From: Diploscapter coronatus
Taxonomy: Eukaryota > Nematoda > Chromadorea > Rhabditida > Rhabditidae
Length of the DNA: 64,000 nt
Direction of reading: 5' to 3'
Assembly (NCBI GenBank): GCA_964036155.1
Contig: OZ038423.1
Coordinates: 32,131,249 to 32,195,248 of the forward strand
Part shown: positions 32,538 through 61,221 of the stretch, piece after piece
Numbering within the stretch: position 1 is the first letter of the stretch
Layout of the letters: every line of letters starts with the position of its first letter
Program-made: the position numbers and the translations under genes
The notes under the pieces: model-generated
What the model was told of the DNA's origin: nothing
The model's database searches: none
What the model saw: only the letters and a program-made list of their open reading frames with translations

Positions 32538-34479
32538 ATGGCCGATGAAGCGAATTGCTCCAAGGCCCTGCTCAGTAGGGAGGCCGACATCCTCAGGAAA
32601 ATCGCATTCCTGGGCACCTGTGTCAGGTATAGAGCATCCGCAAGTCAAATGATTTGAAATCCTGGGCTTGTAGAATGTTGTCACCCCTTTTCTTGGAATT
32701 AGTAGGATGAAGAGAAAAGCTGATGACAAACAACAGACCAGAATCTGTTCCATTTCTAAAAATTAGCAATGTAGCAGATTTCAAATGATCGATCGACTTC
32801 CTCCAACAAATACATTTCCCTCTGCAGCACAGCAGCCACCCTGATCTGCATAGTGGCTATCCCCACTTTGTACAACTACATCCAACACGTGCAATCCACG
32901 CTCCAACCGGAAGTGGAATTTTGCCGACACAAGACTGGGGGACTGCACGCTCAATACGAGAAGCTGCAGGAGATTGTCGGAGTCCGAGACAAGAATGTCG
33001 AGAGGAGACAGGCCGGATATGGCGGAGGATATTCGGGCAGTTATGGAGGAGGAAGTGAGGATTATTTTGACCAAATTTGAGATGTTCTATCAGGAATGCT
33101 AGAATTCAATAGTTTTGACGATCGATCCGATCTGATATAACCTTCTCATGTTTAATTCGTGGAGTTGGCATAGATCTGGCACAAAATCCAAAATTTCTAG
33201 ATCCCGGCTATAGCAACTATGGAACGAATATGCCGAGAGGAGGCGGCGGCAATGAGGGCCAATGCTCGAACACCTGCAAAATTGGAATGCCGGGTCCACC
33301 GGGGTTTGAGATAATTTCGAATTGCACTAATTCTCGTAATCTTTTAGTCTGCCAGGCAAAGATGGCCCAGGTATTCTTGTTGAAATCGGAATAATTTTGT
33401 AGGGCTTTATCTTCGAGAGTAAATTTTAGACGGAAAAGATGGTGAAACGGGAATTGATGGTGAACATGCACCCGATATGGATGATTCATATGGCCAGCCC
33501 CAAACTCAGCCTTGCTTCGAATGTTTGCCGGGTCCGCCAGGTTTTTTTCCCCGATTTAGGATTATCAGACGATTTCTAAATTAAACTAGGTTCTCCTGGT
33601 AATCAAGGAAGAAAAGGAATTAATGGAGTGGCTGGAAAACCGGTAGGATTTTAGACTCATTATTCGAGGTAAATTGATAAAATTCAGGGAATGCCAGGCC
33701 GACCTGTGAGAATTTAAGCATTACTTTTGGTGAACTAAAAATATTCCTAATTTCTAGGGAATGCCTGCTCCATTGGGCGAGCCCGGTCCACAGGTACATT
33801 TTAGAGTCATCTTTAGAGAAAAAAAAAGAAATTTAGGGTCCTCCTGGTACTGATGGGTTCGTCTGAAAATAACAGTAGTTGAATTGAAATTGATAATTTA
33901 GAAATCCTGGGCAAAATGGCGAACATGGTAATTATCCTATTTAGATTTACCTAGATTTAAAATAATTGGCCTGTTTTATGTCAACCCGGTATATCGGAAG
34001 AAGTTGAAGTACCTCAAGGGCCACCGGGATTAGTGTAAGTTGTTGAAACCGTGGAAAATGTTCAATTTACAATTTTGTAGTGGCGCTCCTGGTCCCAGAG
34101 GTTTGTGACTCGATATTTAGTTTAATAAAATACAAAGATAATGGTTGAATTTTATGACCTGATGGTGAGCGCGGCCCGCCGGGAAGAGTAAGGATTCATC
34201 AGTGATAAAAATGATGATCAGAATGATTTTAGCCTGGTAGACCTGGGATCATGGGACCTCCTGGTGACATTGGTAAACATTGTATGCCTAGTTTGATAAA
34301 ACTTTGAAAATTTGAAGGAAGAGACGGTCCGCAAGGAAACGCAGGGCTACCTGGCCAAATGGGAGACAACGGAAATATGGGTGATAATGGGTAAAAGTTT
34401 ATAAGCAATTAAAAGAACAAGCAGAAATTATAGCTCTTGTAATCACTGTCCACCACCCAGAACGGCTCCAGGATATTAA
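32538..34479 (+). CDS. nematode cuticle collagen, 16 exons
   Basis: Model: join(32538..32626, 32828..33054, 33201..33303, 33348..33370, 33430..33540, 33590..33642, 33688..33705, 33758..33793, 33837..33856, 33902..33927, 33980..34034, 34081..34100, 34156..34187, 34233..34272, 34318..34390, 34434..34479), 323 aa, normal collagen size. The N-terminal cuticle-collagen region has a signal-anchor (ATLICIVAIPTLYNYIQHVQ), then NVERRQ, a subtilisin-like cleavage site. Cys clusters CSNTC and CFEC flank Gly-X-Y runs, and the tail is CNHCPPPRTAPGY. Gly-X-Y periodicity fixes almost every join. Two introns, 33928-33979 and 34101-34155, must end in AT instead of AG. The exon count is far above that of Caenorhabditis collagens, with one exon of only 18 bases. 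The product is secreted, trimeric, and cross-linked into cuticle. Confidence 0.93.
33928..33979 (+). other. GT-AT intron 1 of the collagen
   Basis: Donor CATG|GTAATT, 3' end CTGTTTTAT|GTC. Splicing here gives GEH-GQP-GIS in perfect Gly-X-Y register. The nearest AG site (CGGAAG) drops GQP and GIS. Confidence 0.75.
34101..34155 (+). other. GT-AT intron 2 of the collagen
   Basis: Donor AGAG|GTTTGT, 3' end GAATTTTAT|GAC. Splicing here gives GPR-GPD-GER-GPP-GRP without a break. Every AG in the intron either meets a stop or loses the Gly-X-Y frame. Confidence 0.8.
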
Positions 34480-35382
34480 ATTCGATCGGAAAATGAAGAT
34501 GAATAGAAGACTAGTTAATTTATGGGTACTTGTAACTATTGTTGATGGTTTAGTGAATAAATTATACGAAAATTTAAATTAGAAAAGTTATACTTACCCC
34601 AGAATCTGTGTAGAAATTTGAATTTATTGTCTCCAGTGTAGAGTTTTCGTCAAAATGTCGGGGGCGTGGCTTTTGTCCGTGTGCTGCAAAGTATGGGCAA
34701 TGTCTTTTCTATTCTTTGATATCGCGGACTTATTCGCCATTAAACACGACATAGTGAAGCACAAGAATTTGGAGCAATACGTGATCTTTTAGATATCAAA
34801 TTAGTCCATGTTTTCAGAATTGATGTTTCCTACAAATGAATGAATCAACGAAATTAATGAATCATCAAATATCTGTCAATGTCCCATATTCTTGTACACC
34901 ACTGTATTCGTATTCCGAAAGAAAAACCAAAGGAATGATTCCAGATTCTCGTTCGACTTTGACGAAGCGTGAAGAGAAGAATGGAAGAAGAACGTGAATG
35001 GACCAGCGACTTCAAGCTCAATTGAACAGAGATGATGGAATGGAAGCTAGATTTGGCGAATCTGTTGACAGTTAGTTTACCAAAAATTTTGAATTCGTTT
35101 ATTGTTACATAATCTCTTATAATTTATTATTAGGCGATAGAACCTTCATTTTCATCTAACCCGTAGTTAAATCGAATAAGTTTTAATGAGATCGGCATTG
35201 GCTTTGAATTGAGCATTTTAATGGAGGTGGAAATATGTTTGGCTTATCATCATTGACGTAGGTACTCTCTTGCCGACGAGTGAATTCGGTATGTTTCATC
35301 TGAAACAAGGAATGAGGGAATTTCAATTGCAAGTACTCACCTCAAATTTTTGAAAGTACTGATTATGATCATGATTCTGTCA
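34480..35382. other. spacer with a small ORF
   Basis: Mostly non-coding. A 45-codon plus-strand frame at 34655-34792 begins MSGAWLLSVCCKVWAMSFLF and looks like a membrane segment, but no second exon could be joined to it. It may be a degenerate or small membrane-protein gene. Confidence 0.35.
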
Positions 35383-36366
35383 TCACTGAAGAGCAAATGC
35401 AACTATAGCGTGAATTGCACAAAGTAGAATAGCGTCCGCCTAAATTTCATTTTGGAACTAGACAAATATGAAGCTCGAGAAGGTGTGTAAAATGAAAGGA
35501 TATGGAATATGCTAATTTTCAAAATTAGCTATTTCCGTTGATTTGTAATTTTCTTCGTGAACTTACCGCTGACCAGCTCCACTTCTCTGACCATTCCAAG
35601 TGGTTAAAATCTATCGAGTAGTGAATTTCGATGACAGCGCTAATTCCCGCTAGAAGTGAGCAAAATACTGCAGAAGGCATTTCCTAAAACCTGTAAATCA
35701 ACAAAACTATCAATCAGGTCATTCGAGCGTACCCCCCTTTAAGACAAAATACTCTGCCAGTCTTATTGCATACCTTCTATGCATATTACTTTTCTATAGG
35801 AAGAAAAATTATCTTACGTATCCCCTCCCCAAAATTTCCCATCTGGCTGAAAATCTGCCTGAGTCTGTTAACAATTCTACAACTTGCCATGCAATTGTAA
35901 CTTATCGAACAAGGCGTGTTTGAGTACCACAAGTGCGTGATTAACCATCCACTAGATATTAGAATAGTTATCATCGCTGAGAAAATAGGGAAATACTGAA
36001 AATTTGATTTAAATGGGTATTTTCAACTCGAATTTTGCATAAAAACGAAATGACGAGGGATTCTTTATTATTCTAATTTTCATATCTGCATTTTCTCAAC
36101 GTCTAACTTGACTCTGATATTTCATCTGGTGCTATTTCAAAATTCTCATCTTACAAAATAAAATGTTATTTTTTCTTTTGTCTAGGTATATATAAAATTG
36201 GACTTTGAACTAAATTTATAAAAAAAAAAAAAATTACCTGCGCATATTGCATTCCATTTCTGGCGTATTCTTTCGATTCCCCACACGTTTTATAGGTACA
36301 ATAGAATCCCGACCAGTAGAATAGGAAACAAGAGAGCATCTGCAAATTATATATCCTAGTGTCCAT
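35383..36366 (-). CDS. small multi-span membrane protein, model incomplete
   Basis: Two exons are firm: 35567..35683 (EMPSAVFCSLLAGISAVIEI... ending WSWSA) joined in phase to 35383..35439 (ADAILLCAIHAIVAFALQ, stop). Both have good splice sites and hydrophobic, helix-length segments. Upstream candidates are 36238..36366 (starting MDTRIYNLQMLSCFLFYW) and 35818..35995 (YFPIFSAMITILISSGWLIT). These two join in phase to each other, but the second leaves one extra base before 35683, so a micro-exon or a different boundary is missing. Layout and the Ala/Ile/Leu-rich last helix suggest a four-span MARVEL-like protein. This is inference from hydrophobicity only. Confidence 0.4.
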
Positions 36367-38185
36367 TAAATATCACTTCTTATTGCTAATCCTGATCTCC
36401 ATCTTATCAAATCCAATCTAATCTTATAGGTTTTCTGTATAATTTCGATGACTACGTCATAATGTTTTTGACTTAGAGTTACGGTTATAGTTAGGCATTA
36501 AATTTTCCGTTTTCAAATTATCATTTTATTTATTAGGATCTTCGATGGCTAAAATTTCGATTCAAGCTTCAAACTCGGTAAAATGTCAACTCTGAGCTTT
36601 TCATTAATCACAATTATTCCGGTGAGTGTAAAAAAGAATTTTTGGGCTGTCGACAATGCAAGTTCTGTTCTAAAGTTAGATTGAAAAATTTTAGTATCGG
36701 AATCGTAATTTCAAGATACAAATTTTGTCGGGGTCTGAATTTGCAGTGCTAATTGTAAGGCTGAAGTTTCGAGCAATCTTGAATAATATCTACTTGGAAG
36801 TATGTTGACCAGGGCTGTCCTAATTGAACTTCGAACTTGCTGAAAGCTCAGTTCAAGTTCGACCGCAAAAATTCTTCACGGTTCAAACTAAGTTAGTTTT
36901 ATTTTTCGAATTTCAGACAGCTGATTTTGGCCCGTTCTAGTTGCAAATAGTGGATGAATTATGCAAGATGCCAATCTTAGATGGGGTGAATGCTGTTCCT
37001 GTTTTGTACTCGGCTTTTCACACATTCCACTTCCTTCTCACTCTTGCCCGCCGAATGGTTTTGTTGCTAGGGGAACTCGACTCAAGGAACGAATCACTTC
37101 TGAGGGCGCATTAAATTTGAAATCGAGACCAAATATATGAGATTTGTCTAATTGCTGCTTGACATTAAACGAACGAAAATTCAATTATTTTGATGGTGCT
37201 TTTAGTTTCGAAAATAATTAAAACTATCGAAAAAACGAACTTACGATAGAGCACATATAAAGAAATAACGGGAATTTTGATCGCGGAGGCTTCGAGTACA
37301 ACGGCTTAGGCACTAATTTGGCCATTCTTAAAATTTTAAGGCCGAAAATCTGTAAAAAGAATCTTTGGATCATAAACTTTCACAAGGAATATAAAAATGC
37401 AAAATATTTGCGAAGCTGTGAGAGAAAAGGTGAAAATGAGCGAATAAGGAAAGGAAATACTGAAAAAGGGGGAAGATTAAAGCAGAATTGCTCTGCTGCA
37501 GAGCAGCAGACGTTGAATTGAGCTGGTGTGTATGTCGTGTTCAGATTTGGATAGCGTTTGAGTCGGATTTAAAAATACGCCTAGAAATAGGTAAAACGAG
37601 CGAAATCTCATGGTTAGTGGGTTTTCTACCTTTGAATAAAGCTAGAAATGCAATTTTTAAGAGAACATTTGGATCAATCAAGAAGTTCTTGAAATTTTCG
37701 AAAGCAGCAATATTTTACCATCAAAGATCAGGAGGTATGATATGAGAAAGCAGTGAAAATTCTTGAATTCCAATAACTTCTCAGAAGATCGAATTATTGG
37801 GAGTACGCCGTACGGACATTCTGATTTTAGCTTCTTCCCAGGTCTGGTCGTATTTCGTACGGGTGGATAGCTCTTGGCAAAGAAAAGGTAAAAGGAGCGA
37901 AGGAAGGATGGAAGAGGAAATGGGAAGAAAGGAATGAGGAGAATTGCATAAGAAATAAGGGAAGCCATGCCAGTGGGACAAAGACAATGCAAGAGAGAAG
38001 CTGCAAAGGAAGCAGAAAGGCTGTGAAACTGAAGAGCGTAGAAAATCAGACAAATGTAAACAAAACATACACATAGCATACGAACCAGAGGGGAAATATT
38101 CAAATACTCACATACACCACATGACATACACATCCAGGTGCAAGAGCATAAGAGAAATCTTGAATTCCCACGTGACAAACCAATT

Positions 38186-38500
38186 TTGTAGCCAGTATTT
38201 CGGAATTAGAAGGGGCATACACGGTACGTCAAAAATCTGGCTAATTTTCATATCAAATTCTGCCCAAAAATAGAACTAAAAAAATATATGAATGTAGGAT
38301 TTCTAATGAGACTTCTCAACTTGTAGCCCTATCGGAAAACTATAAGACACGAAATGATAGGATAAGCTGGCAACAATGTTTTAGAATTTCTGTATCTCTA
38401 CATAATTTATTTTCTTCGAATTTTCAAGTTGAACTTTGTAGTCAGTATTTCGGAATTAGAAAAGAACACACAGGACACGTCAAAAAGTTGGAGAAATTTT
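38186..38500. repeat. direct repeat pair
   Basis: The segment beginning TTTGTAGCCAGTATTTCGGA (about 38188) recurs as TTTGTAGTCAGTATTTCGGA (about 38434), each followed by AATTAGAA-G-CA-AC and ACGTCAAAAA. Spacing is about 246 bases. Confidence 0.65.
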
Positions 38501-39242
38501 ATACTGAAATAGAATTATGATGATAAAATTCCGAATTCCTAAATAAGATATTGAAATTTTGCATGCATGTAAAGCCAAAGATTTCTTCTCGAACACGAAA
38601 ATTCTTCGATCTTTTGACGCACAATGTAAAGAGCATAGGTAACTCGAACCAAGTGCAAAATTCGGCGGCATAGACAAAGACCCCCATTCGAAAATGTGCT
38701 AAAGCGACATCAGATATGCATTCAGAATAGAATGACCTAAAGGAAAAGGAGAACACTAAAATGGCTATGAAATATATTGAAGTGAGCCAGAAAGCTGATA
38801 AGAATACGAAATGAGTTCTTATAAGTCGAGAAAGAACGGATACTTTTATTAAGGAATGGGGAGCAAGATAAGCAAGAAAGGGGGGATTAGGATAGATTTG
38901 AATATGAAAGAGAGACAGGTGGATTGCATAAGGCAGATATTATGCCGACAGACTATGATTCGTATCAAAGGTATATTTGTAATGCAATTAAGTTGAAATT
39001 CTAGAAATCGTACAGAGAAAATCATACCTGACTGCACAAGACGTAAACATTCTGATATTCTGTTAGGCTTTTGAAATAGTAATAACAGTTGAACTAAACC
39101 CTACAAGAAAATGCGTAAATATCAATGGATTGAATGTGTTTTCCTGTAAATAACTAGACTTAATTCTGGTAATTCAAGTTTTCTGCGGAAAAATCATTTT
39201 GATTTCAAATTTACAACGAAATTTCATAATTGATAAATTCCC

Positions 39243-39458
39243 TCATTTGGTATTGTTTAATTTCTTCAAAGTTTCTCGCCGCTCCTTTCCGCGTTTGTGT
39301 TCCTCTGCTAATCTGCGCAAATCTTCCTTCACTTTTAGTATCAGCCGTTCAGATCTCCGAATGTCTCGTCGAGTTTTTTCAATGCGGCCAAAAATGCGAG
39401 TCAAATTTGGAAGCGGCCATGAAAAACGGCGAGTGTTCGGGTGAAAAACGACTTCCAA
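39243..39458 (-). other. charged open frame, possible exon
   Basis: A minus-strand frame ends RLAEEHKRGKERRETLKKLN and is Arg/Lys/Glu-rich, as in a coiled coil. It has no in-frame ATG and no convincing acceptor, so it is either an orphan exon, a pseudogene remnant or chance. Confidence 0.2.
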
Positions 39459-39535
39459 AAGAAGAAACGTTTATCTAAAATGCGCTAAAATTCATATAAA
39501 CATTGCGAAACAAACAATAATACGGGAATTATGAA

Positions 39536-39586
39536 CAGGGATGTTCGCGGTGCGGTGCGAAAAAAATCGCACCGCAAACATTCCTG
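39536..39586. repeat. short hairpin
   Basis: CAGGGATGTTCGCGGTGCGG and the opposing CACCGCAAACATTCCTG form a compact hairpin around an A-rich loop in the gene-poor region. Confidence 0.65.
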
Positions 39587-41083: not shown

Positions 41084-41220
41084 TGGTAACCTGGAAAAGT
41101 AGTTGCAATAGTGCATCGTTATATACAAAATAGTAAAGGAAGACCATCTTTTCCTTAACAAAGCTCATATTACTTCGCATTTAACGATGCTACGATGCAC
41201 CTACTTTTCCAAATTGCCGT
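41084..41220. mobile_element. family F MITE-like inverted repeat
   Basis: Ends GGTAACCTGGAAAAGTAGTT and CTACTTTTCCAAATTGCC. Interior GCATCGTTATATACAAAATA pairs with the opposing block. Related to 25477-25611. Confidence 0.7.
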
Positions 41221-45143: not shown

Positions 45144-45272
45144 GTCCTGTGTCCGGATCTACGAAACTCTCGCAACCTCCGAAACTTTCCTATAGGGAAC
45201 CTTCTTCCCGTTGAGAGGTCCCTATAGGAGGGATTCTGAGAGTGTCCCGGATCCGGACGATATTTTGTCTCT
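45144..45272. repeat. nested inverted repeat
   Basis: Outer arms GTCCGGATCTACGAAACTCT / GAGAGTGTCCCGGATCCGGAC and inner arms CCTATAGGGAACC / GGTCCCTATAGG. Single copy about 0.6 kb upstream of the fusogen start. Confidence 0.65.
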
Positions 45273-45878
45273 CTCAAACTTCGCACCAATTTCTGGGCTC
45301 ATGTTTAATTGCCAGATTGGCGAACTTTCATTTCTGCGTGAGGTCCATTCTAAAACATAGAATTTCAAAATCTAATGCGATACGGTATTTTGAGCCATTT
45401 TAGGGTCGTTAGTCATCGCTTATGAATGTTTAAACGATTAAAAATTTACGAAACTCTTGTCTTTAACTACGTAATAGTGATAAGTTCTTTTGTTGACAGT
45501 TTCTGTTCCCCTATTCCTTTCATCCTTCAATCGGTTCGGTTTAGAACTGATTTGTCTGATTTAACGCCTAATTCAAGTGCCACAGGGCATTCCTGCAAGG
45601 CTATGCAAATTCGCGCGTTTCGAGTGATTTGAGTGAGAACGGTCTAAACAGAAATGGGAGGAGAAGAAGAAGAGATAATGCAAGGCCATTTCCTGTAGAT
45701 TTAATTCACTCTGAAATTGCATTGTTGATTGCCAAAATGAGCTAGATTACTTCAAATTCATTATAAATACCCTCTTTTCTACTTTTCATGTTATTTTTCG
45801 GAATTTTTTAGAAATGATTTTTCATAACGAATACAAATTTTCAGAAGATAGACCCCTGCGAGTCCCTAAAATCATCAG

Positions 45879-48800
45879 ATGGGGCTTCCTCTGCAGGCCG
45901 CCCTCATGCTGATTTTATTTCTGTTCTGTCCTGCAGTTTCCCGAGTGATAGATGAATTACCGCACTGCACGAATTCACGAGTTATGGAAGGCAGTGTGAG
46001 TTTTTCTTTACTTTTTTTTTTTTATAAAAAATGAAAAATTCTGTCTTCGACTTAACTTTCCAAAATTACGTGTTTGATCATACCTTCCTTTCTTATCTTT
46101 GATGTGGTCTACTAGTCTGCTTATTCTCAACTTATAGACTTACTGATAACAAAAAACCATGCGAAAATTTTCGAAAATGAGCAAAACGTTTGTTTTTTCC
46201 AGATTAGAGATTGTGATGATTCGAAGGGGAAATGCAAGGTGTTCAGTGCGATTCAAATACGGTTGGGTCTGCATGAATCTGCCTGTTTGCAGCTGAAAGT
46301 AAGAAATTAGCATATGTAGAAATTTAGAAAAAAAAATATTGTTATCATAATTACTAAATGTTTTGTTCAATGCATACTTGAAAATCAAGAATTAAATTTG
46401 TCCTATAAAATACTATATTTTAGACAAACAGCAGTGAACCTGCCTTTATTCATACATTGGAATATCTCCGACTAGAACATCATCATCCAATTGCAGGTAG
46501 GAGAGATTGGAAATTCTATCGTTTTGAAACAAATCAAATGCAGGCAAATATTCATTCGGAATTCCTCAAATCAAGCCGTCTTGCATTTGCGACTGTGCTG
46601 GTGGCGATGTGACTTGCACTTTAAAGGTAAGTTGTTCAATTTGCCAAAATCAAAACTTTACGAGTTTGATTAAAAACCGAGTTCTTCATGCAGATTTTCA
46701 AATTGTTGCAAAGTTTTGACAATGAAATTTTTTAGGAATATTCACACGGCAACTGCACGCACGCCTCGATTTGCTACCGAACGCACTCGTTCGTGTCGAA
46801 TGAGGGTTGCCTCACGCAGGGCCAAGCAGAGGCCTGCTGTGACATTGCCATCGAGCCCTACAAGGGCTGGCGGTTTACAGCCATTAAAATCAATCAACCT
46901 GACACCTGGCTCATTTTTCGGTGGGTTGTTATTTTAACCAATCTGAAAAATTCATTTTTTTCCATTTTTGAAACTTCACTTTTTCATTTTTTGTTTCAGG
47001 TACTCAATATTTTCAAGATCAGCCCAAACGTGGAGACAAATTTCGTCTGAAATTATCAAGGTTGGATTTTTTGTCACAAAATGATGAGTTTTCATACTGC
47101 AGGTTCCTCTAAACAACGGAATAGCACGATTCCAATTTAACCAGATCCACCACATCGAGTTGTCCGTGTCTGGAGGACCGACCAACAGAAGAGTCGAGCC
47201 TGGAATGTACTTTGTTAGAGAAGGTAAGGAAAGAAGTTAATCATCTGGAAAACTTTCAGTTCCTTTTCAATTCTTCCTTCATAATCCCATTTTCTTACCT
47301 CCATTTAAGGATGTTAACATTTAGAAAATGCAAGAAAAGGTGATCTTCCAAAATGAACCTTTGAATTCAGGAAGCCACGAGCTGCATGGAGGCACTCTGA
47401 CTCCGCTAAACGACCTGACAGAAACGCACATGGAAAGACTTGGATGGATGAGGTTCAATGATGAAGGCAAACTGGCGATCTACAATGGGGACACGAAGAT
47501 CAAAATTGCGCATGTAAGTGATTTTTGAAGAATAGTCAAAATGGGAAGATTTGTTGAAATGTTCTTTTCTACGCATAAAATCTGCCCAATTTATGAGTTT
47601 TCCAAAATCATAGGATTGATTTGCAGAGCGTTCGGGTGATCAACTGCGTCAAGCAAGAATACGAGACGAAATTCGCAGGCAGAGAGTACGTTCTGGACAC
47701 TGGCAAGAGGGTCACAGAAAATTTCGACTTGGGTAAGTTGAATTGGGATTTTCAGGAAAATGTCATGAATTCAGGCAAAGCGTTGACAGAAGAAAGCTGG
47801 ATCAAAACGGCTCGAGTGGAGAGCAGAGTTGTCGTGGTCGAACATGGAGAGGGCAGTTATGTGAATGTAAGCAATTTTTGAAAATAAATTTGAAATTGTT
47901 TCAAAAGCTACCTTCTTTTGAAGCTGGGAGTGCGAAATTCTAGTTAGAACTGAAAAAAGCTCGTCTTTTTTTAGGAAAATTTCACCATTGCTTATTCATT
48001 CAGGGGTCCATTCAAGAGCTAGTTCAAATTTGGTTTTCTCGAAAAGTAGACTCTTATCGGAAAAATGAGTTGTTTTCTTCAGATCGATGTCCTGACAGAA
48101 ACAAGGCCCCAGATCCTGAAGCATCCCTCGCAAATGCAGAACTTCTCAGGACTCATCCAACTCGACAGGGAGAGCAATCGATTCCTCAACGTCACATTCT
48201 TCGGAGTCAAAGGCACGCTGATCGGCAAAATCTACAAGTCGGAAACGAAGACAGAACCCGAAATGACTTTCAGTGTGCAGAGTAGGACTTTCCTTTCTTT
48301 CTTATTTCTCACTTTACTTGCATTCATTTAAATCAAAATGCTAAAAAGTTTATCAAATTAAAATTCGAAAAGTCTGTTTTCATAATGAGTTCAAATTTTC
48401 AGCAAGTCTCTCAAAGACCCTGGATCAATTATCGATAATCTCCGTGCCAGCCTCGATCAACGGCAAAAGATACGTCTGCTTCTATCCGGCCAGCGATTTG
48501 AAGGGCGAAATCTGCAAGTGGTTCAAGTCAGTGAAATTCTAAAAATTGCTTAAAATCAGCTAAAAATTCCTATCAAGATTTCAAGGGAATAATTTCAGCT
48601 ACGATTCTCAACCACTTCACTCCTACAAGGCGTTAAATCCATTTGAAATGCAGGTCGGGGATTGTCATGGGTAAGTTGATTTTCTATATTTTTATTAAAA
48701 ATATCATGTTTTGCAGATGCAATGCTCGAGGTCTAGAAGGATATCTCGTTTCTTTGGATCCAAGAAGTTGGTTGAACGGGCTTAATTCGCCTTATGAGGT

Positions 48801-50282
48801 AAGGAGAATGTTTAAAAAATGATGCATTTTTCCTTCTTCACGCTAATTCAAATGAGATTTTTACGAAATAGTTTTCCTCCTAAACGGTCATGGTCTTTCA
48901 GTGGCTGGCCTTTATCGCTGAAGTCGTGCTTGGAATCGGTCTGATTCTGCTCATTGTCGCTCTCTGCACGAAATGCATCATTCCATTGGCCTGTTGTTCT
49001 CTGAGGATACCCAAATACAGCAGGAAAAATCGGAAGAAGTAAAACTTGGTGAGCAAATATTTTCAATAACAAGCAAATTACAGAAACTAAATTTCACTTC
49101 AATCTGCATTTAACAGATGAGTTGGGGTGTCATTTTTAATTTTCTGTAAATTTGTTTCCGATGAGAAAATATTTGAAGGATGAAAACTGAAATTACAGAA
49201 ATGCTATATATTCGAATTGATCTAAATGGATATTCATATCTATGATTTTTCTGCCATATCTGCAAACCATAGACATTTCATTTTCCCCAAACTATTAGGT
49301 GCAATTCCTCTCCATGTTTTTGTAGACACTTTTGACTGAAACTCGATGCCTTTAAACTCTTCCCTCAGGAGCACAATAATTTGCCTTTGTTATTCTGAAA
49401 GTTCATAGTATTCTTTGGAAGTTTGTTGAATTCATTAGGATCTCACTTTTGTACTTTTATCTGGAAATGGCAATCAGGAAAATTTTCAAAAGGGATAAGT
49501 AAAATCGCGATTTTTAATATTTCAATGTTGAGAAAGAACACGGTTTTTCTCGTCCCTGATTTTCAAGTTCGATGTTTTGACAGCAAGATTGCCATTTTCT
49601 GAAAATAGGCCTAGCAATCCAGCATCAATTTTTACTTATTCATCACAAGGCTCACCTCTTGCCTCTTCCTCTCAACCGGTACAGTAGACATAGAGAAATT
49701 ATCATTTATCGGTAAATATTCGAAAATCTGCTCCATTGCGAGTGCTTTCCAATAATATTGACATTGGAACAGATTTTCGTTTTTATCGTTTTTTCTAGAA
49801 TTTTGATTGATTTATTGATGACGATTCCAGGTGCTTTCCCTGTTCCCATTGCGATGTTTTGTGATATTCTAGTTTTCATTGAAATTGAAATATTGAACAT
49901 TTTGTCATAGAGACGTGTGATGGTTTTTGCATCTGAAAATTAATCGGAGAGTGTTTGAAATTTTTATTCTTACTTTTCTTTTTCAAGTCTGAAATTTCGA
50001 GCATTCCAAAAACTAAATTTTCACTTCACTTCACAATTCCCACTCGCACATCTCTATAAAATCACTGCCTAATCACTTTCAGCTTCCTGTATTTCTTACC
50101 GACCTTAAAATAGGAACAAAAGGTGGCTTCAAAATGTTTGCTGTGAAACATATAAGGAAGAGAATCATTTTAGCCTATTTTGCAGTAGTCCGAATTTGCG
50201 CCAGCACTCCAGTTTCCTTGCGGAGCTGCGACGAAGCGGCAAAAACAAGCACAAGGATTTGAGGCGAACGGCCATCAACTAG
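45879..50282 (+). CDS. eff-1/aff-1: EFF-1/AFF-1 family cell-cell fusogen
   Basis: Model: join(45879..45995, 46203..46298, 46424..46496, 46544..46626, 46736..46920, 47000..47060, 47103..47223, 47371..47513, 47627..47732, 47775..47866, 48083..48281, 48403..48526, 48599..48670, 48717..48798, 48902..49038, 50186..50282), 595 aa, close to AFF-1. A signal peptide (MGLPLQAALMLILFLFC) leads a Cys-rich ectodomain with the family's CICDCAGGDVTC and, later, CYRTHSF and AEACCDIAIEPYKGWRFTA. One transmembrane helix (about 519-542) precedes a basic cytoplasmic tail. Such proteins sit on the plasma membrane of both partners and merge somatic cells. Their ectodomain fold is the one shared with class II membrane-fusion proteins. 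The last intron is 1.1 kb; if unspliced, a stop follows at once (49040-49042). Confidence 0.9.
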
Positions 50283-51207: not shown

Positions 51208-53811
51208 ATGTCAACTTCAACTTCCGCTCACGCTGCCACCACTTCCTCTCATATCCGGGTCAGTTTTTATAATTTAGAAAATTTGTAAAAATCGACTACT
51301 TTGAAAAACAATCACTCATTAAAAACGGGAAAGTTTCAAGTGAGTTAAATTTGAACTTGTTAAAGACCCCATTCAATTGCGAAACGACGATATTCTAAAT
51401 GAGTTTTATCTCCGTTAGAATCACGCCATGTTTCCTTCTAAAATCTAAAAGCAAACTCCGAATTTCTGAAATCCTTTTTCCAAATCTGCATTTCATTTTC
51501 GAAACTTTCAGCCCTCCAGCAATTAATTCATCCTTCCCCTTTACAATGCGCCCCCAGTTATTATGGTCGGTCATCCGTCCATTTCACGTTCATTTCCCCC
51601 TCTTTCCCACTTCATTTCCCCACGGCGCATATTCAAATTCTCCCCTTCCAACCTTTCCCTCGATTCTCCCAGAAAATCATCAAATGTGTCCCAAATTCGC
51701 AACATCTCCATTCACTTTGCATAAATGCTTCTGTATCCTCCTCTTTACCTGTCTGTCCGCATGTAATTGAACTGTCACATTCATTATTCGCACATTTATT
51801 TCCATTTCTCGCCTTTTAAATTCTCATTTATTCAGGTTCTTGTAAAAATCTTTTTTTAATTATCCAAAAACTTCCAGATGGCCGACAGTCTCCCTCCAGC
51901 CGAAAAACTCCGCTCGAAAATCCGAATCAAGAACATCGTCGTACGCAATGCGCTCGCTGAGTTTGTCGGAACATTTCTTCTAGTTGTGAGTGTTTTTCAC
52001 GAACTAAAAAAGTTGCATATTTTTCAATACATGGCAAATTTGAATATTTTACAATATCACGTCCCTACAGCTTGAAAAATTGAAAGTTTTTCTTACCGTC
52101 ACCCCCAACCTCTCCTATTCCTACACTCTTTTCATAAGCTGCTGTAATATTTTCAAAATTCTCGTAAAACATCTATCTTTGAAAGGTTTTAATTCAATAT
52201 TTGCCATTTTTCTATTTTTAGTTCATTGGCATTGGTGCTACAATGCAAAACATTCTGTCTCATGGTGCAGTGAACGCCCCCGTGCAGGTTAACATTGGAT
52301 GGGGCTTTGCCCTAGCCTTCTCCATCTATGTCACTTATCACATTTCTGGTAGGTTTACTATCGCATTTACTCCGCAAATTTTGCCCTCCTAGAAAAATTC
52401 TCTAATGCTAAATATTAGCTACTATTTTGTATAGTTAAAGAAAGGAAGAGTCACTAACATTTAGTATTAGGATATTTTTCTGCAAGGACAAGACTTGAAG
52501 ATTATATACGATAAAACATCGATAACAGACGTTGGGACGTTTTCCACCGCAAAAATTCGATCATCATCTCTTGTCCCATTATTAAAGATAGTAATTCAAA
52601 GCTGACTGGAATAATCCACCGCATAAGGGATATTTGCGGTGGAAAACTTCCCAAGTCTGGTCGAGAAGAATATGATATTTTATGCGGGCAACTGAATCCG
52701 GCAGTTTCGTTGGCTCTTGCAACCCTCAAGAAGATCTCCTTCAAAGAGTTCGTAATTAATTCGATCGCCCAGGTGTGCGGCGCTTTCTGGGGAGCCGTCT
52801 TTGCGTATTGGCTTTATTATAGTAAGTCGAAAGGGGGTTTTTTTTTGTAAATGTCTTCTAGTTTTACAATGCTCTTTCTTTTAGGGTAATTCAGCCAGAA
52901 AACCATTTTGTCTGTTTCCTGAAATTATTTGAAATATTCAGACCAATTCACCAAGACCGTCGGACCGAACCGTACCATTTTGGGCGACCGAAAGACTGCC
53001 GAGTGCTTCACCTCGTTCCCCGCTCTGCATGTCACAAGGACCACGGCTTTCTTCGATCAGGTAAGCCACTTTTCCTGCTTTTACGAGGACGATGACTTTT
53101 GCAGTTAGTCGGCACCGGATTACTTGTGTTTTTCATCGTGGCCATTTTGGATCGAAGAAATCGAATTCCACAGGCTGCTCACCCACTCCTGATCGGGTTC
53201 GTCGTTATGATGATCGGTGAGATTTTTTTTTTTTTTAAATCAATATTTTTATAAAATTGAAAGTAAACCAACATAGAATTTCTGAGACAGAAAAAACAGT
53301 AATACAAATTTCAGGAATGTCCTACGGCATGAACGTAGGCGCTCCAATTAATCCTGCTCGCGACTTCGGCCCCCGAATTGTAGCCGCTTTCATCTACGGC
53401 ACTGGGGTCTGGCAGTAAGTCAAGCTTCATTATCAATCACTTGAAAGGAATGCTGATAATTTGTATCACTTTTCAAAATGAACAAACGAATGTGATTCCA
53501 TATTCGAATGCCAAATCAATTTTTGAAAAAAAAAACTCCCATTAAAGTGTCCAAATTACATCTATATAATATTGTGTTGCGAATAAGTGTGCTTTCAGAT
53601 ACAACAACTTCTATTTTTGGATTCCGATAGTTGCCCCTCTGGTTGGCGCAATTTTGGCGACTTGGCTCTATCAATTCACCCTCGGCTCCCACCTTCCGGA
53701 CCTCGTCGTCCACGAGCAAGTCCCTGTCGACGAATCAAAACAACCCCTGAAAAATGGGTAAGTTTCGCAAAAATATCGACTTAAAGAAGTTATTTTAGAG
53801 ATGATGTGTGA
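51208..53811 (+). CDS. aquaglyceroporin
   Basis: Model: join(51208..51258, 51878..51985, 52222..52348, 52684..52821, 52942..53060, 53105..53216, 53315..53414, 53599..53757, 53799..53811), 308 aa, typical MIP-family length. The first half-helix is GGQLNPAVSL (Asn100-Ala102) and the second APINPARDFGPR (Asn231-Ala233). Asp235 after NPAR is the aquaglyceroporin signature, so glycerol as well as water should pass. Helix 1 starts at NALAEFVGTFLLV. The product is a six-span plasma-membrane channel, tetrameric by family. The third intron (52349-52683) only gives the conserved SGGQLNP loop if it ends in AT; the alternative AG site inserts EYDILC in place of the second Gly. That intron contains a family G element. 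An internal ATG at 51878 could serve as a second start. Confidence 0.93.
52349..52683 (+). other. GT-AT intron of the aquaglyceroporin
   Basis: Donor TTCTG|GTAGGT, 3' end GATATTTTAT|GCGGG. Joins HIS to GGQLNPAV, matching the family loop. A family G element fills much of the intron and ends 24 bases before the 3' site. Confidence 0.75.
52526..52659. mobile_element. family G MITE-like inverted repeat
   Basis: Arms CAGACGTTGGGACGTTTTCC-ACCGCAAA and TTTGCGGTGGAAAACTTCCC-AAGTCTG, about 28 bases each. A solo right end lies at 54093-54122. Confidence 0.8.
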
Positions 53812-54559
53812 ACAGTATTCACGTCTAAAGTTTCTAGATTCAATAAATCGTAGTCAATTTCTAAATTATGCAGTGAAAACAAGCTTCAACTCCAATTTAT
53901 AGGAAGGCTAACCTACTTTGATACTCATCATTTTTTATCATTCCATTTTGATTAATTAATTCTTTAAATTAATAAAGGCTTCATTTTTTATTATTGATTT
54001 TTTTTCATGTTGCTTACACAATAACCGCTGTCTAACAGTGTTGTGATATCTGGTTATTATGGGAGCTGTATTGGTTTTAGTGAAAAATGCTAATTTTTGC
54101 GGTGGAAAACGTCCCAAGTCTGCCTATGAAGCTTTATCAAAATTTTTATTTCTACTTTAAACCTGTGAGTCTCCCATACCGTAATGCGAACATATTTCAA
54201 CACTCGAAGACCAAATAATAGAAGATTATGTAGCGGGTCCTTTTATTAATAAAATCATTTTTCTCTAAAATAATGAAATTCATCAGTTATTTGTCCGCGA
54301 TAAATTCATAAACTGATCGATCAGTGCTTGCTAATATTAACGAATCTAGTGAATGTCAAATGAGAAGAACCTATTGTTTCCTTTCCTCATGCTGAGCAAT
54401 ATTATAGTCATGGCGCATCGGTGGTTTGCTACTCGCCTTCGTTTATCACCTCTTTTCTGAATTTTTCATTTCAGTTCCCTTTGTTTGTGAACGAATTTCA
54501 TGTTACATTTTTTTTATTTATTCGGTTTTTTTTTCTCAAAATATTAGTTTTTTTAGAAG
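53812..54559. other. intergenic with solo family G end
   Basis: AT-rich spacer. At 54093-54122 the word TTTTGCGGTGGAAAACGTCC-CAAGTCTG matches one arm of the family G element with no partner arm nearby. Confidence 0.5.
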
Positions 54560-56430
54560 ATGAGCAGAATCACAGACGGAAATGATTCTTCGAGTCTGCA
54601 GAGCACTAATTCTTTTTCCTCTGCTCAGGTAATAAATAAAAAATTTTCTTGGAAATTAATTTCATCACTGACTTTTCGGCTGCAAGTACTTTTGTTCCAA
54701 AATGAGAGAAAAGAGAAATAGCGAAAGGGAGAAAGAAAGGTAAAGAAATAGCGTTTGGGACAAAAGTACGTATTTTGCGACAAAAACACTCACTTCAAAT
54801 CTTTGGAACAAAACTACTCGCACTAATTAAATTCTCACTAATTCGATGAATTTCAGGCATTTAACAATCAACGAATCGAGAATATACATGACAGACAGGG
54901 AGACTTGACAGAACTTCGCGCAGGAGTCACTGCAGTGCAAGAAGAGCACAATGTGCAACAAGTCCTTCTTCTGCTGCGTAATAACGCGAATCTCTGCTTC
55001 AAATTCATCAATATGTTTCAAGAATCCGTATGAGAAATGTGTGTTTTTGCAAAATTAATCATTCTTTTAGTACAACACAGTAGAAGAGAAGAAGGAAGCA
55101 GTTAAAAATGTCGGAAGTGGGTTTTTTCCTATCATTTCCCCGAACATTTTCATTTAGTATTTGCCTCTTTAAACCCACTCGCAGGCAATTCTGCGAAGGA
55201 CGAACTAAACAATGCAGAAGGTGCTCATAAGGTAACGAAGCTCTCTTTCTGAACTTTAGCTTCCTATATTTAAAGACGGACGATATACACAGACGGATAT
55301 TAGGGGTAGGGCGGAGAGGAAAAAGAAGGAAAGACCGTCTAAATTACAGCCGTCTGTAAATACAGGAAGCCCTGATATTTGAGATCGATTGAAAATATTC
55401 TGACTTTCAGACAATAAAAGGCTTTCTCACTTCTACTCTACACGAGCTCACGACTGCATTCACCAGCTTCAGTGCTGCAATTGGTTCGATCAAACTACGA
55501 GGTGTGACAGAAGGTCAGGTCACGACCGTCATCAGCAATTTCGAGACCCACATTCGCGACTTGACTGATGAAGTTTCAGTAAGTTTTATTTGTTCTAACT
55601 GTTCTTCTGGGGGTCGAAAGCGATTTATGCCATAAAATAGATTATTTGTACCAAAATTTACGAGGGAAGTCCCTACAATTTTGGTACAAATCACCTTCAA
55701 CCCTTCTAGGCTTATTTAATTTTGCAATTTTAGAAGACGTCAAACGTGCAAATTAAAAAGGTAGAAGAACATGAAGCCAAGATGCGCTCCTTGCTCGAAG
55801 AATTGTCCGACAAGCTGAAACTCGACGCAAACGATCGACTTGAGGTGAGAAATTTCAAGGAATTCTTACAGAAAATGGTAAATTATATAAATCACACGAA
55901 TCAACATAAGATATCAAAACTAGTAACAAAATAATATGAAAATATATAACGTATCTTAGGGTATACTATCATATTTAGCCTATTGTATCGGTCAATGAAG
56001 TGACAGTTCGTGTGCTAAAGAGTGCCTTGCGAGAAAGGAGATTGTGAGAGATAATGAAAAGAGTAGTAGGCAATTTCCTCTGCCTCTTTCCCCTTTTCTA
56101 CCTATTTTTAATACATGATCTATCACTTCGTTTGACCTCGACCAAAACAATATATCCTGTGCCATTATGACATGCGGATAACTTATAAATTACCCGAATT
56201 TTTAGGCGCAATTCATCAAAAAGCAAAAAGAGCTGCTGCGAAAGATGCAAACGTACGTTATATCTGGGAACCTTCTGATAGACTCGACCTTCGATCTGAC
56301 ATTAATAAAGAAGACTTTGCCCCAACTTCCACCGCCGTCTCAACCCTCGTCTCAGCCCCCGCCTCAGTCCGCAGACGGAAAATATCTGCTGCCGGGGGAT
56401 CAATTGTCAGAAAGTGTTTTCCAATTTTAA
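54560..56430 (+). CDS. coiled-coil protein of unknown function
   Basis: Model: join(54560..54628, 54857..55027, 55071..55116, 55185..55231, 55411..55578, 55734..55844, 56206..56430), 278 aa, all phases closed. There is no signal peptide. Residues about 25-225 are helical and charged, with long coiled-coil-like stretches (QIKKVEEHEAKMRSLLEELS, then QFIKKQKELLRKMQ) around a more hydrophobic block (STLHELTTAFTSFSAAIGSI). The C-terminus is Pro/Gln/Ser-rich (LPQLPPPSQPSSQPPPQ). I do not recognise the family. A GTACGT donor inside the last exon (at 56254) could splice to about 56681 and give a Cys-containing alternative tail, but the open Pro-rich reading is favoured. Introns hold family A, C, D and E elements, the densest cluster in the window. 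Confidence 0.65.
54683..54769. mobile_element. family C MITE-like inverted repeat
   Basis: Arms CAAGTACTTTTGTTCCAAA and GTTTGGGACAAAAGTACG, matching the copy at 12402. First intron of the coiled-coil protein gene. Confidence 0.75.
55261..55369. mobile_element. family A MITE-like inverted repeat
   Basis: Begins TTCCTATATTTAAAGACGG and ends CCGTCTGTAAATACAGGAA. Inner words 'acagacggat' and 'gaccgtct' also pair. Confidence 0.72.
55610..55703. mobile_element. family E MITE-like hairpin
   Basis: ATTTGTACCAAAATTTACGA and CCCTACAATTTTGGTACAAA form a tight hairpin flanked by GGGTCGAAAG / CTTCAACCC. A second copy lies at 58912. Confidence 0.8.
55990..56138. mobile_element. family D MITE-like inverted repeat
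   Basis: Ends GGTCAATGAAGTGACAG and TATCACTTCGTTTGACC. Shares CAGTTCGTGTG and GAGTGCCTTGCGAGAAA-like words with the copy at 7066. Intron of the coiled-coil protein gene. Confidence 0.7.
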
Positions 56431-56875
56431 CAAGCGTAAATTGAAAATCCTACTTCTTTCATTTAACTTGTTCATCGCTTATGTGCTGCATTGTCCGAAT
56501 TATTCCGTGACAAATTTAAAATTTGAATTCATTTTTTTTTTTTTTAGATATTGTGCTAGCCTGATTTTATTTACGAGTAAAGGATTTTCAAGAATTGATC
56601 TTTTGTATCATGCAAGATACTTCGGCTTCTCTCGTTTTTTTTCCCGTCTGAGTTTTTCTCGAAAAATGTCGAATGATACAGGAATATGCAGACGGGCGAA
56701 TCATTCGTCTGTCGATACGCGAAGCGAGTGAAGCAATTGTCCGATTGCTTCCAGCAGACAGGGCCTATTCTCGTATTCCGGCTGAATTACTCGAGGAAAT
56801 TCAAGTCTTCAGATCAGCCCCGTGCCTGTCTCCCCCTAACCTCAAAACTGTACAGCTTCAAACCGCCGTTCAGTT
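56431..56875. other. spacer before the peroxidase
   Basis: Two overlapping frames of about 90 codons (from 56673 and 56686) are open here, and one has plausible codon usage. They could be a 5' UTR region of the peroxidase or an alternative tail of the upstream gene. Unresolved. Confidence 0.4.
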
Positions 56876-59800
56876 ATGCTACCCCTATTCAATCTCCTCT
56901 TTTTCCTGTTTTATTCCATCGAATTTTCTCTGTCTCAACCCCGTCATGTTGATGACTGTAAGTTCATTATGAGAAAGTGTTAATTGGGAATTTGGATTAA
57001 TAAAACTAATGACAATTTTCATTGAATTGGCAATGTTTGAGGGCTCCTTCCCGAAGTTCAACAGGCTATGCATCCCATTAGGCTGAATGAAGATCACCCA
57101 ATAATAAAGCGTAAGAATAATCATTTTCGGTTTACAATATAAGAGTTATCAATCTTCATGTAAAATAATGCTTGAAGAAAAAGTGACGGCGTTGCAGAAT
57201 TCAAGAATTTTCGAACCATTGATTGCTTCAGATGAAGAACTGCCGCCAACGTTTCATGAGTCTGATTGGAAAGAAGACGATGGAAGAGGAGTCAGTGGGT
57301 GGTCTGTGCTAAACCGACGAATTGATAGCGCGATTAGGCGAGCTGCAAGAGTTGAAGAGGGTGAAAGGAGACGAGTGCAGGAAATCACTGGGAGAGGCAG
57401 ACCACGTTAGTTTCTCATTTTTCTGGAACATTTTTGAAGATGTAAAGTATGAGGTTCACTATAAAAAAGAACTAATTGTCGTGAAGATGATGATCAGATT
57501 TCTGATATTCGTGAAGAAAGAGGAAGATGAATTTTATAACATTTCAAAAATGTCAGGACCAACCCCATTTCGAAGCTTCTTCTCCTACGGCAGATCGATG
57601 AGTGCCAAAGCTCAAGCAGTGCAGCTGTCAAATCGATCCGCGATTCTTCTGACGGTATTTTTAAAACATTTTTACTGTTTTTCTTCAATTTTAATGTTCA
57701 GACCACAAAAATGCTTCTTGGCGAATTACAAGACGATTCTTTCGCGTTTTCGATGAGTCGAGATGAAGAACTCCAGAAACTGTGGGGATATGATTTGTCG
57801 AGGTAGAAATTCAAATTTTTTTTTCTAAATTTTTGCTTTTTTCCCGAATTTTAGTTTTTTTCTGTATCTTTTTTAATTTCCAGAATCCTGCCCGAAAACG
57901 ACAATAATCGCTGCACACCAAAGAATCTGCCTTGCAACAGGGCCGCTAAATATCGGTTAGTAGTCTATATTTTCCACGACAAAATGAGCAGATCTGCGCA
58001 GGACTTAGTCAAGTATCCCTTAAAATTTTTCATTTTTCAATCTGTCTAAATCTAAAATAAGTGAATTCAAGGACCTTCGATGGTTGGTGCAACAATTTGA
58101 AGCATCTCGAGTTCGGCAACACTTTTAATGAATTAAAAAGGCTGTTGCCTCCTGCTTATGAGGATGGTATGAGTTTTGAAAAAATATTTTAAACAATATA
58201 TCTTTCTAATTTCATAAATTTTCTTTTTTTCTAAATTTCTAGTCCAGGAATCGACGAGCCTCGTTCCTTTTCTTCCTCTGGCAATCTGCTTCCGAACCCT
58301 CGAGTCATTTCGAACGTCGTTCATCACGACAAGAATATTCAGCATCCCATGGTCAGAAGTTTTTTTTAATTAAGAAAAACCTAATATTCATTAAAGCAAA
58401 AAAAGTTGAATTGTATTGAGTTCTTGAAGAAAATTTTTAAAAGTTGTCAAAATCAGTCGTTTTTCAGAAATATGGAAATTTTAGGTTTATTGATTTTTTA
58501 CATTTCTTATTTCAGCACTCTCATATGTTGATGCAACTTGGTCAGTTAATCGATCACGACCTCACTCATTCGCCGTTCGACGATTCTCTACTGGCTAATT
58601 GCTCTAGGTTTCACTTTTTCTTCCTTCATGAAGAATCCGATCATTTTAAAATACCCAACTTCTTCCGCTCCTAGCTAGATCCCCCTTATCTTCTTCTATC
58701 ATCGAAAATTTTAGTTTTATATTCTAACACCGAGTAAAAATTGCAATTTTCAGTTGCGATTCGTCTCGAACAGTGTCCGTGAATTGCGTGCCGATCCCGA
58801 TTCCTTCCGACGACCCGCATTTCCTTCCTGGGACTTGCCTGTCGTTTGTAAGATCGATTCCTGGGCAGAGACAGCTTGGAGCGAGGAATCAACTCAATCA
58901 GGTGAGTTCTGTTGGATTGAAGCGATTTGTACCAAAATTTGCGAGGAAAATCCCTACAATTTTGGTACAAATCTCTTCCAACCCAATTCTTTTCTCGATT
59001 TATTATCAAGAAGTATTTATTGTTTTCCTCTTTTACATTAGATGGATTTTCAAACTCTTTAAAAAATCGATTTTTAGATCAGCTCATTCCTTGACGCATC
59101 TCCAATTTATGGTTCGACTGATTGTGAAGCTGAAGTTTTGAGAGAAATGGAAGGAGGCAGACTGCTGACAGCGAGATCACAATGGAATGGAAGGTGAGTG
59201 GAAAGATTTAAAAACAATCAAAGTTTTATTTTCTTAAAATAATGAATTTCAGAGATACCCTGCCACAAAGAGATGAGGTGGACGAATGCCGTTCCGCGCC
59301 ACAATTTCCCTGTTTCCAGGCTGGAGATGATAGGTTGATTTTTTCGCTAAATTTGTTTTAAAACCAAAAAGATGGGTTTAATTTTTCCTACTTATATCGA
59401 TTTTTTTTTCAGGAATTCTCAACATCCGGCCCTCGTCTCCCTGCAGTCGATTCTTCTCCGAGAGCACAATCGAATCGCAGACGAATTGTCGAGCATCAAC
59501 AGGGACTGGAGAGATGAGCAGATTTATCAGGTTTTGACTTTTCAATAAATTAAAAAATCATGATCTTTTCAAAATTGAAAAGTATTTTCCCTTACATTCA
59601 TTTCTTCATTTTCTAAATCTTAACGTTTCCAGGAAACCCGGCGAATCGTCTCTGCGCAATGGGCTCACATAGTTTATTCGGAATATCTGCCGAAGATTCT
59701 CGGCAGAGAAGTCGTGGAAAAAGAGGAATTGCTGCCTCTGCAATCAGGGCATTTCGAGGGATACGACTCGGAGTGTGATGCAACCATCTCACAGCCATTC

Positions 59801-61221
59801 GCCACCGCTGCATTCAGATTCGGACATTCCACCATTGGGAGGTTGATCTTTGTCGTTTTTTCCCTTTTAAAACCGAGAGCAAATAATATAGCTTTGTCTT
59901 TGGTTTAGAAAGAAATTGCGTATATTTATGTGTTTCTAATCTAATTTTAGATTTTCATGTTTCAAACCTTTTTTTTCTTTCAGATATTTTCCCCGACTCG
60001 ATGCCCACTTTCGCCCAGTTGCTTCAGATGTCGACATCGCTGATAATTTCGACAACACGACAGTGATTTACGATTCTGAAGGTCAGTTTGAATAAACAAA
60101 AATCGACTTTTTCTTCCATTTTTCTAGCCTGAATTTTTCATCTTTGACTTTTTAAAGGCAAATTTTTCTTCAGGAAGTGTGGACAGTATCGTACTCGGAC
60201 TAGTTTCTACGGGACAAATGGCTTTGGATCGACATGTTACTGATGGAGTCAGGTAGTTTTAATCAAGCATTATTAGTCAAGAATGTCTTGCAGAAATCGC
60301 CTGTTTTCCGTACCAGGCGTGCCTCGAAGTGGATTAGATCTAATTTCCATCAACATTATGAGGGGCAGAGACCATGGCATTGGCAGTTACAACGTTCACA
60401 GGTAAAAGGTTTAAAACGTGAGGAAATGTTTTTTGCCTATAATTTTTTATCCTCGGAAGATGAATCGTTCAGAGAATACTGTGGCCTGCCGAAAGCGCTG
60501 TCGTTCTTCTCGCTGAAAGGAGTGATGCGAGACGAAACGATCGAACGACTGCAGACGGTGTACGAATCCGCAGAGGACATCGATTTATACACCGGGATTG
60601 TCAGCGAATTGCCTTTGGAAGGTTAGTTTTTAATCAAAAGTCGTGGCTATACCAGAATACATCTTCCTGAACAGAAAATGATAGCCGAATATGGTTCTCG
60701 TGAACCTGCTTGTGCTCTCTAGATATAGAAGCAAAGAACTATCCGAAATTGCCGAATGGAAGCATTCTCAGAGTAGCATAATTCGAGATTGTTTTCCTGA
60801 AATTATTCAATTTTTCATGCGCTCTCGTCGGCCCCCTTGCAACCTGCCTCATCGTGGAGCAATTCAGGCGATTGAAGAAGTGCGACCGATTCTACTACGA
60901 GAACAACCAACAGTTCGTGAAATTCACTCCTGGTTAGTTTGATGATTTTTTCAAGAAATTACAATTTTCTAGGCTAATTGCAAAGAAGTTGATCGAATTT
61001 TTAGAGCAATTGCAAGAAATCAGACAGACCTCTCTGGCTGCAATAATCTGTGCGAATTCCGCAGCCGCTCAGCTGCACAGGGATGTCCTCTCTCTGCCAC
61101 ACCATTTTCTGTCATTTTTTCCGAAAAATTAAACAAAAATTTGATTTTCAGGAATGAGTTGGAGGATTGCCGCCAGATTCCAGAGATAGATTTGGGAGCC
61201 TGGAAGGAGAAAAGCGAGTGA
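56876..61221 (+). CDS. secreted animal haem peroxidase, 20 exons
   Basis: Model: join(56876..56957, 57160..57405, 57557..57654, 57702..57802, 57884..57955, 58072..58166, 58248..58351, 58516..58607, 58754..58901, 59078..59193, 59253..59333, 59413..59530, 59633..59841, 59984..60081, 60174..60252, 60294..60401, 60473..60621, 60819..60932, 61005..61110, 61152..61221), 761 aa, frame closed throughout. Signal peptide [20 protein letters not shown]. Peroxidase landmarks in order: [36 protein letters not shown] (Asp279 and distal His280), [38 protein letters not shown] (proximal His516), [30 protein letters not shown], then [12 protein letters not shown]. Nematode relatives cross-link cuticle or make oxidants outside the cell. 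The introns ending at 57159 and 60818 must end in AT. The final donor (TTCT|GTCATT) leaves a 41-base intron. Confidence 0.93.
56958..57159 (+). other. GT-AT intron 1 of the peroxidase
   Basis: Donor GACT|GTAAGT, 3' end AATCTTCAT|GTAAA. Joins the signal-peptide exon in phase to the exon reading [12 protein letters not shown]. Using the later AG (GCGTTGCAG) leaves a TAA at the join. Confidence 0.6.
58912..58984. mobile_element. family E MITE-like hairpin
   Basis: TTGTACCAAAATTTGCGAGG and CTACAATTTTGGTACAAA with flanks TTGGATTGAAG / CTTCCAACCCAA. Intron of the peroxidase gene. Confidence 0.8.
60622..60818 (+). other. GT-AT intron 2 of the peroxidase
   Basis: Donor GGAAG|GTTAGT, 3' end CAATTTTTCAT|GCGCT. 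Joins LPLE to [16 protein letters not shown], matching the conserved peroxidase strand. No AG acceptor in the 3' half keeps frame without a stop. Confidence 0.8.

Follow-up and report, generated by a model that had tools for sequence, protein, structure and literature searches.

A stretch of 64,000 nucleotides from the nematode Diploscapter coronatus (C2:32131249-32195248, hereafter the window, meaning the whole stretch that was analyzed) contains five putative introns that start with GT and end with AT, the next base being G in every case. They are distributed over three unrelated genes, encoding a cuticle-type collagen, an aquaporin and an animal haem peroxidase, and AT is read at all five acceptors in the second haplotype as well (contig C1). 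Reading frame and homology make a compelling case that the AT acceptor is required in three of the five (34101-34155, 52349-52683 and 60622-60818). With a probability of roughly three in four, these are ordinary U2-type introns in which an ancestral AG has changed to AT while constitutive splicing continues at the original position. The features concerned are the following, with slashes marking splice junctions.

32535-34394, plus strand: cuticle-type collagen gene model (exons listed, two boundaries off by 1-2 bases; sequence read directly).
33928-33979, plus strand: possible GT-AT intron of the same collagen gene, weak case; AT kept in C1.
34101-34155, plus strand: GT-AT intron of the collagen gene, strong case (GAG/gtttgt...gaattttat/GA); AT in C1 too.
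34156-34187, plus strand: exon after the AT acceptor (GPDGERGPPGR, 32 nucleotides), in which the Gly-X-Y pattern continues.
51878-53757, plus strand: aquaporin (MIP) gene model (Pfam MIP, E 7e-46).
52349-52683, plus strand: GT-AT intron of the aquaporin gene, strong case (CTG/gtaggt...gatattttat/GC).
52684-52821, plus strand: exon after the AT acceptor (GGQLNPAV...WLYY, 46 codons, 138 nucleotides), with the first NPA motif.
56958-57159, plus strand: possible GT-AT intron near the peroxidase N-terminus, weak case; its true 5' end may be 57111; AT kept in C1.
57160-61221, plus strand: animal haem peroxidase gene model (Pfam An_peroxidase, 1-528 of 530, E 7.3e-183).
60622-60818, plus strand: GT-AT intron of the peroxidase gene, strong case (AAG/gttagt...aatttttcat/GC).
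60819-60932, plus strand: exon after the AT acceptor (38 codons, 114 nucleotides).

The source genome is a diploid nematode assembly of 169,703,327 bases in three contigs, and the D. coronatus diploid genome is described as 170 Mb with 2n = 2 and 5.7% heterozygosity (PMC5483258). The window has a full-length collinear counterpart on contig C1 with 94.5% identity across 62,203 aligned bases (~5.5% divergence). The closest protein relatives of the window genes are found in Diploscapter pachys: the peroxidase agrees with WR25_00048 at 492 out of 502 aligned residues, and the aquaporin is 99% identical to WR25_00047 when one skipped exon, described below, is excluded. Overall, the window gene models comprise six genes and 67 introns, four of them with an AT acceptor (the N-terminal peroxidase intron lies outside this list, two collagen introns in it were read as GT-AG by eye and the last entry for the EFF-AFF gene is uncertain). 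Since the window was chosen for its AT introns, the density of AT acceptors within it is no estimate for the genome.

All five introns are in phase 1, in the frame that fits the downstream sequence, and their donors conform to the ordinary GT consensus (scores of 3.1, 3.5, 3.1, 1.2 and 1.5, with -1.7 to 4.1 across the donors of the window models). The acceptor motifs, UAU at three sites and CAU at two, follow U-rich tracts. An earlier note on this DNA had described the five stretches, their recurrence in three unrelated genes and their shared phase, each of which is borne out here. Alternative joins were sought among all in-frame GT-AG and GC-AG pairs with a donor score above -3, covering the upstream exon and up to 60 bases past the donor, together with the interval from -260 to +60 around the acceptor. 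When donor and acceptor scores were summed with the last two bases unscored, the AT model scored higher than every AG alternative in all five introns. Four of the five introns (not 56958) have a G on either side of their junction, where GT-AT and a shift by one base to the left (GG-TG) give the same messenger RNA; GT-AT is preferred because the donors of the paralogues, which carry GT-AG introns, read G/GT.

The in-frame join search returned two alternatives for the collagen intron 34101-34155, both of which use the AG at 34188 and delete the entire next exon; none that keeps the following residues was found. Skipping this exon breaks the frame because it is 32 nucleotides long. In the aquaporin, the AT join at 52683 restores HISGGQLNPAV, whereas the 30 alternatives include AG sites at 52665 and 52668 that keep the frame in both haplotypes and insert residues into SGG-NPA. 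Twelve alternatives were returned for the peroxidase intron 60622-60818; among the best six of these, three start at 60867 and lack the conserved beginning of the exon, while the other three use 60787, which is broken in C1. No AG alternative that keeps the residues at 60818 and is open in both haplotypes was found in this search. Frame and homology together call for AT at the acceptors 34155, 52683 and 60818; they do not force it at 33979, where the AG at 34018 is available, or at 57159, which has 14 alternatives.

A splice-aware profile aligner, in which each of the 15 non-AG acceptors carried the same penalty of 7 nats, was run with peroxidase and aquaporin profiles made from homologous proteins of other species (the Diploscapter proteins P0001, P0002, P0017, P0121 and P0123 were excluded). 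In the aquaporin it picks AT at 52683 only, with a gain of 10.5 nats over the best AG model after the penalty (10.2 in the C1 copy). The peroxidase is given 17 GT-AG introns and AT at 60818 only, with a gain of 17.2 nats (13.9 in the C1 copy). As a check of sensitivity, two GC-AG introns were recovered unprompted.

The aquaporin and peroxidase introns are probably ancestral GT-AG introns with an altered acceptor, since paralogues carry GT-AG introns at the same codon and phase. Such an intron is present in both haplotypes in three of the seven aquaporin paralogues examined, all reading TTTC(T/C/A)G/GT...TTTAG/G, and in one of the 11 peroxidase paralogues examined (AAG/gttttc...gtttag/GCG). From these positions, the exact boundary is taken to be that of the paralogues, which read ...attttag/G and ...gtttag/G where the window has ...attttat/G and ...ttttcat/G; the U-rich context is that of a TTTTAG or TTTTCAG site with its last base changed, as had been noted earlier for TTTTCAG from the window sequence. 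An origin of these two introns from an introner or transposon was rejected on the basis of the shared positions. A miniature inverted-repeat transposable element (MITE)-like element lies inside the aquaporin intron (inverted-repeat arms 52526-52550 and 52636-52659); one 24-base arm has 79 matches in the genome at up to two mismatches and its reversed control has none. The repeat is wholly internal to the intron and falls short of both of its ends.

The exons behind the four better-placed AT sites differ between the haplotypes by 12 synonymous and two non-synonymous codon changes (P = 3e-6 if 75% of changes are expected to be non-synonymous and 1e-4 at 66%), a count in which the first collagen site says little, its acceptor place not being fixed. 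The peroxidase exon shows eight synonymous and one non-synonymous differences, the collagen exon 34156-34187 two and one, and the aquaporin exon one and none. The exons behind the AT sites are under purifying selection. In D. pachys, model WR25_00047 (P0121) skips precisely the aquaporin exon and model WR25_17929 (P0001) precisely the peroxidase exon, as expected if gene predictors cannot model an AT acceptor in that species as well; a predictor is able to skip both because their lengths are multiples of three.

Several points weigh against this account. The AT junctions are predictions from genomic sequence. In two of the five introns (33928-33979 and 56958-57159) AT is not forced and the case is not compelling: the first has five in-frame alternatives, among them the AG at 34018, which also preserves Gly-X-Y (NPGQNGEH/GPPGLV), and the second, in an N-terminal region of low conservation, has 14 GT-AG or GC-AG alternatives. 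Within the latter intron, ~57041-57110 is nearly identical between the haplotypes and has an open frame, and may be an unrecognised exon, which would shift the 5' end of the intron. In the aquaporin, the AG alternative at 52665 (TCGAG/AA; adding EEYDILC and dropping one Gly of SGG) is open in both haplotypes and seems clearly worse, though not impossible. The comparison of positional homologues covers the aquaporin and peroxidase introns, and the comparison with D. pachys covers predicted protein models; a second peroxidase model of that species (P0002) ends before the exon and carries no information. Furthermore, a de novo gene finder, which served as a guide only, gave a mixed dinucleotide control: by gain, AT ranked first among 15 dinucleotides on the plus strand (22.9) and second on the minus strand (19.6, behind CT at 22.5), a noisy result with spurious introns among the picks. 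Nine AT introns were proposed on the minus strand, and two of these were inspected more closely: one in a bromodomain gene was judged spurious, adding short unsupported exons, and the one at 4815 is a candidate. Finally, obligatory use of AT would be unusual given that Drosophila melanogaster, with 14 annotated GT-AT introns among 60,223, is reported to have a similar canonical splice beside all 14 (PMC4528330).

An unlikely explanation, although the best placed of the alternatives, is that splicing takes place at nearby weak AG sites or from other donors and that AT is an artefact of seeking a perfect family consensus. Weak in-frame AG sites do lie near the aquaporin, first collagen and N-terminal peroxidase introns (52665 and 52668 in the aquaporin, 34018 in the first collagen intron), and the gene finder and the aligner, when limited to AG, used 52665 and 60600/60787. 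However, the 60600/60787 alternative in the peroxidase lacks SELPLEG and is interrupted in C1 by an indel, AG models for the collagen acceptor at 34155 delete an exon, and the aquaporin AG model disrupts SGG beside NPA and places the intron elsewhere than the paralogues do.

It is less probable still, and quite improbable, that the exons after the AT sites are skipped or regulated cassette exons with decayed acceptors. Exon lengths of 138 and 114 nucleotides keep the frame, and it is exactly these exons that P0121 and P0001 lack; predictors unable to use AT would, however, yield identical D. pachys models. Against this reading, the exons carry the aquaporin NPA motif and a block shared by the remaining full-length nematode peroxidases in the alignment, they evolve under purifying selection, and the 32-nucleotide collagen exon cannot be skipped in frame. 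An assembly error at the AT sites is highly improbable: a single assembly is involved, but AT stands at each of the five places in both haplotype contigs, which are ~5.5% apart. GT-AT is also among the accepted terminal pairs of U12-type introns, which with a 5' G are reported to splice to a 3' G or T (PMC4176328). This reading was rejected as extremely improbable: the RTATCCTTT donor and TTCCTTRAC branch-site motifs are absent, the matches (3-5 out of 9 and at best 5-7 out of 9, respectively) being no better than those of 22 GT-AG introns in these genes (2-6 and 5-7), and the U12 small nuclear RNAs are all said to have been lost from nematodes (PMC13326754). A search of the genome for U12 RNA gave no match and was uninformative, the controls being equally silent.

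The frequency of the class was addressed in the peroxidase and aquaporin families. Genome searches gave 126 peroxidase and 25 aquaporin matches, of which the best 30 and the best 20, respectively, were cut as loci and merged into 33 stretches. The aligner placed 326 introns in these stretches: 318 GT-AG, two GT-AT (the window peroxidase and its C1 copy) and six others. After collapsing by gene, position and phase and excluding the window peroxidase, no AT acceptor was found at 188 intron positions of 18 paralogous genes, which limits the frequency of AT in such genes to less than ~1.6% (rule of three). The class is rare outside the window in the sampled families; these 18 genes give no sign that GT-AT introns are common in the genome. 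Four non-AG picks fell outside the window: two became GC-AG once GC donors were permitted, one was a tie and one was GT-CG. The GC-AG introns belong to peroxidase paralogues and read CAG/GCAATG and CAG/GCAAGT (locus starts C2:29309472/C1:31207922 and C1:53214435), one being present in both haplotypes and the other seen in one. The tie, of 0.6 nats with an aaag acceptor, was in C2, and its C1 counterpart was picked too. The GT-CG intron is found in a further peroxidase paralogue (C1:40257615-40257659; loci L027/L029), where the acceptor reads TTTTTCG in C1 and TTTTTAG in C2; this single-haplotype acceptor might be either tolerated or part of a null allele. Among the other window genes, an EFF-AFF cell fusogen gene (45879-49038; full-length Pfam match, E 1.1e-160) adjoins the aquaporin.

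If the U2-type introns with a mutated AG are indeed spliced at their AT, U2AF would bind the UUUU tract and define both the branch point and where the 3' splice site lies. During the second step, U(-1), the last base of the intron, would pair with the first intron base G(+1) instead of the usual G, allowing UAU or CAU to dock and be used. No special factor would be needed beyond the tolerance of nematode 3' splice sites, which are U-rich and without a branch-point consensus; in Caenorhabditis elegans, U2AF is reported to read UUUUCAG/R and a branch-point consensus to be absent (PMC4889670). That a U2 spliceosome is capable of AT use is shown by the annotated Drosophila GT-AT introns, 11 of which have support from RNA sequencing (PMC4528330). 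In yeast lacking Prp18, HAU sites with a strong poly(U) are used, CAU and UAU are the best of the non-G sites and U(-1)-G(+1) pairing has been proposed (PMC10711555). In the worm, PRP18 or a similar second-step factor may have become slightly less strict.

The earlier note had looked to a changed U2AF1 or late spliceosome component, and for U2AF1 and PRP8 the genome gives no encouragement. Eight exon matches to U2AF1 at two places correspond to one locus per haplotype contig, no duplication was found in the genome search, and the first zinc finger (CSFFFKTGACRHGDKCSRAH) is identical to that of Angiostrongylus P0220. The alpha-finger segment of PRP8 matches PDB 8ro0_A, which we take to be the C. 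elegans protein, at 133 of 136 positions (counted by eye on the alignment), so that U2AF1 and the PRP8 alpha-finger region look ordinary. SLU7 was located in the genome, and the PRP18 domain is present in both haplotypes. The PRP18 loop (L076, C2:59978400-59980200) reads GVTRSGIHQRPGSAKAYV with several differences from yeast GVTSVGIHARSAHSKIQG, a comparison made with yeast alone. A farther-reaching proposal, which we consider doubtful, is that a loosened second step in the lineage, for example through the diverged PRP18 loop, has made UAU and CAU after a U-tract fully constitutive sites. GT-AT introns would then number hundreds or more genome-wide and would have persisted for long on the two haplotypes, without recombination, of an asexual animal; essential exons would be missing, unnoticed, from many gene models of the genus.

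The earlier note knew of no recurrent GT-AT class in a nematode; Drosophila does have annotated GT-AT introns, and no report of a nematode class was found in the open-licence PMC literature. Unstranded RNA sequencing is reported to tend to call GT-AT introns as AT-AC on the opposite strand (PMC4528330), and predictors and aligners limited to GT-AG, GC-AG and AT-AC drop such exons, as in the two D. pachys proteins. A nematode with obligatory GT-AT introns would add a new form to a known rare class: if confirmed by complementary DNA, it would be an animal with AT as the sole acceptor of conserved exons, beyond the known alternative or mutant use. Such introns would also offer a direct test of whether pairing between G(+1) and U(-1) is enough for a wild-type U2 spliceosome to complete the second step, and of why the AG rule is otherwise kept.

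C. elegans mutants that have lost the AG were reportedly found by Aroian and colleagues in 1993 to splice at the old 3' site, a likewise nematode use of the old place, although those were laboratory mutations and the sites described here are natural and present in both haplotypes. The Drosophila GT-AT introns similarly combine a U2-type GT donor with an AT acceptor in protein-coding genes and go unmodelled by predictors, but each is described as having a canonical splice beside it, whereas the worm has no good canonical alternative in three cases (PMC4528330). The HAU sites of prp18-delta budding yeast share the CAU/UAU motifs, the strong upstream poly(U) and the GU donor; they are alternative sites in a mutant, whereas the worm sites are apparently the sole ones in a wild animal in which PRP18 matches are present (PMC10711555). 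In the tunicate Fritillaria borealis some introns also end in AU, with a U2-type spliceosome that lacks a U12 partner, but there 95% of introns are reported to escape GT/AG and the U2AF subunits to be duplicated, whereas the worm has ordinary GT donors, a rare class of such introns and one U2AF1 locus per haplotype (PMC13326754).

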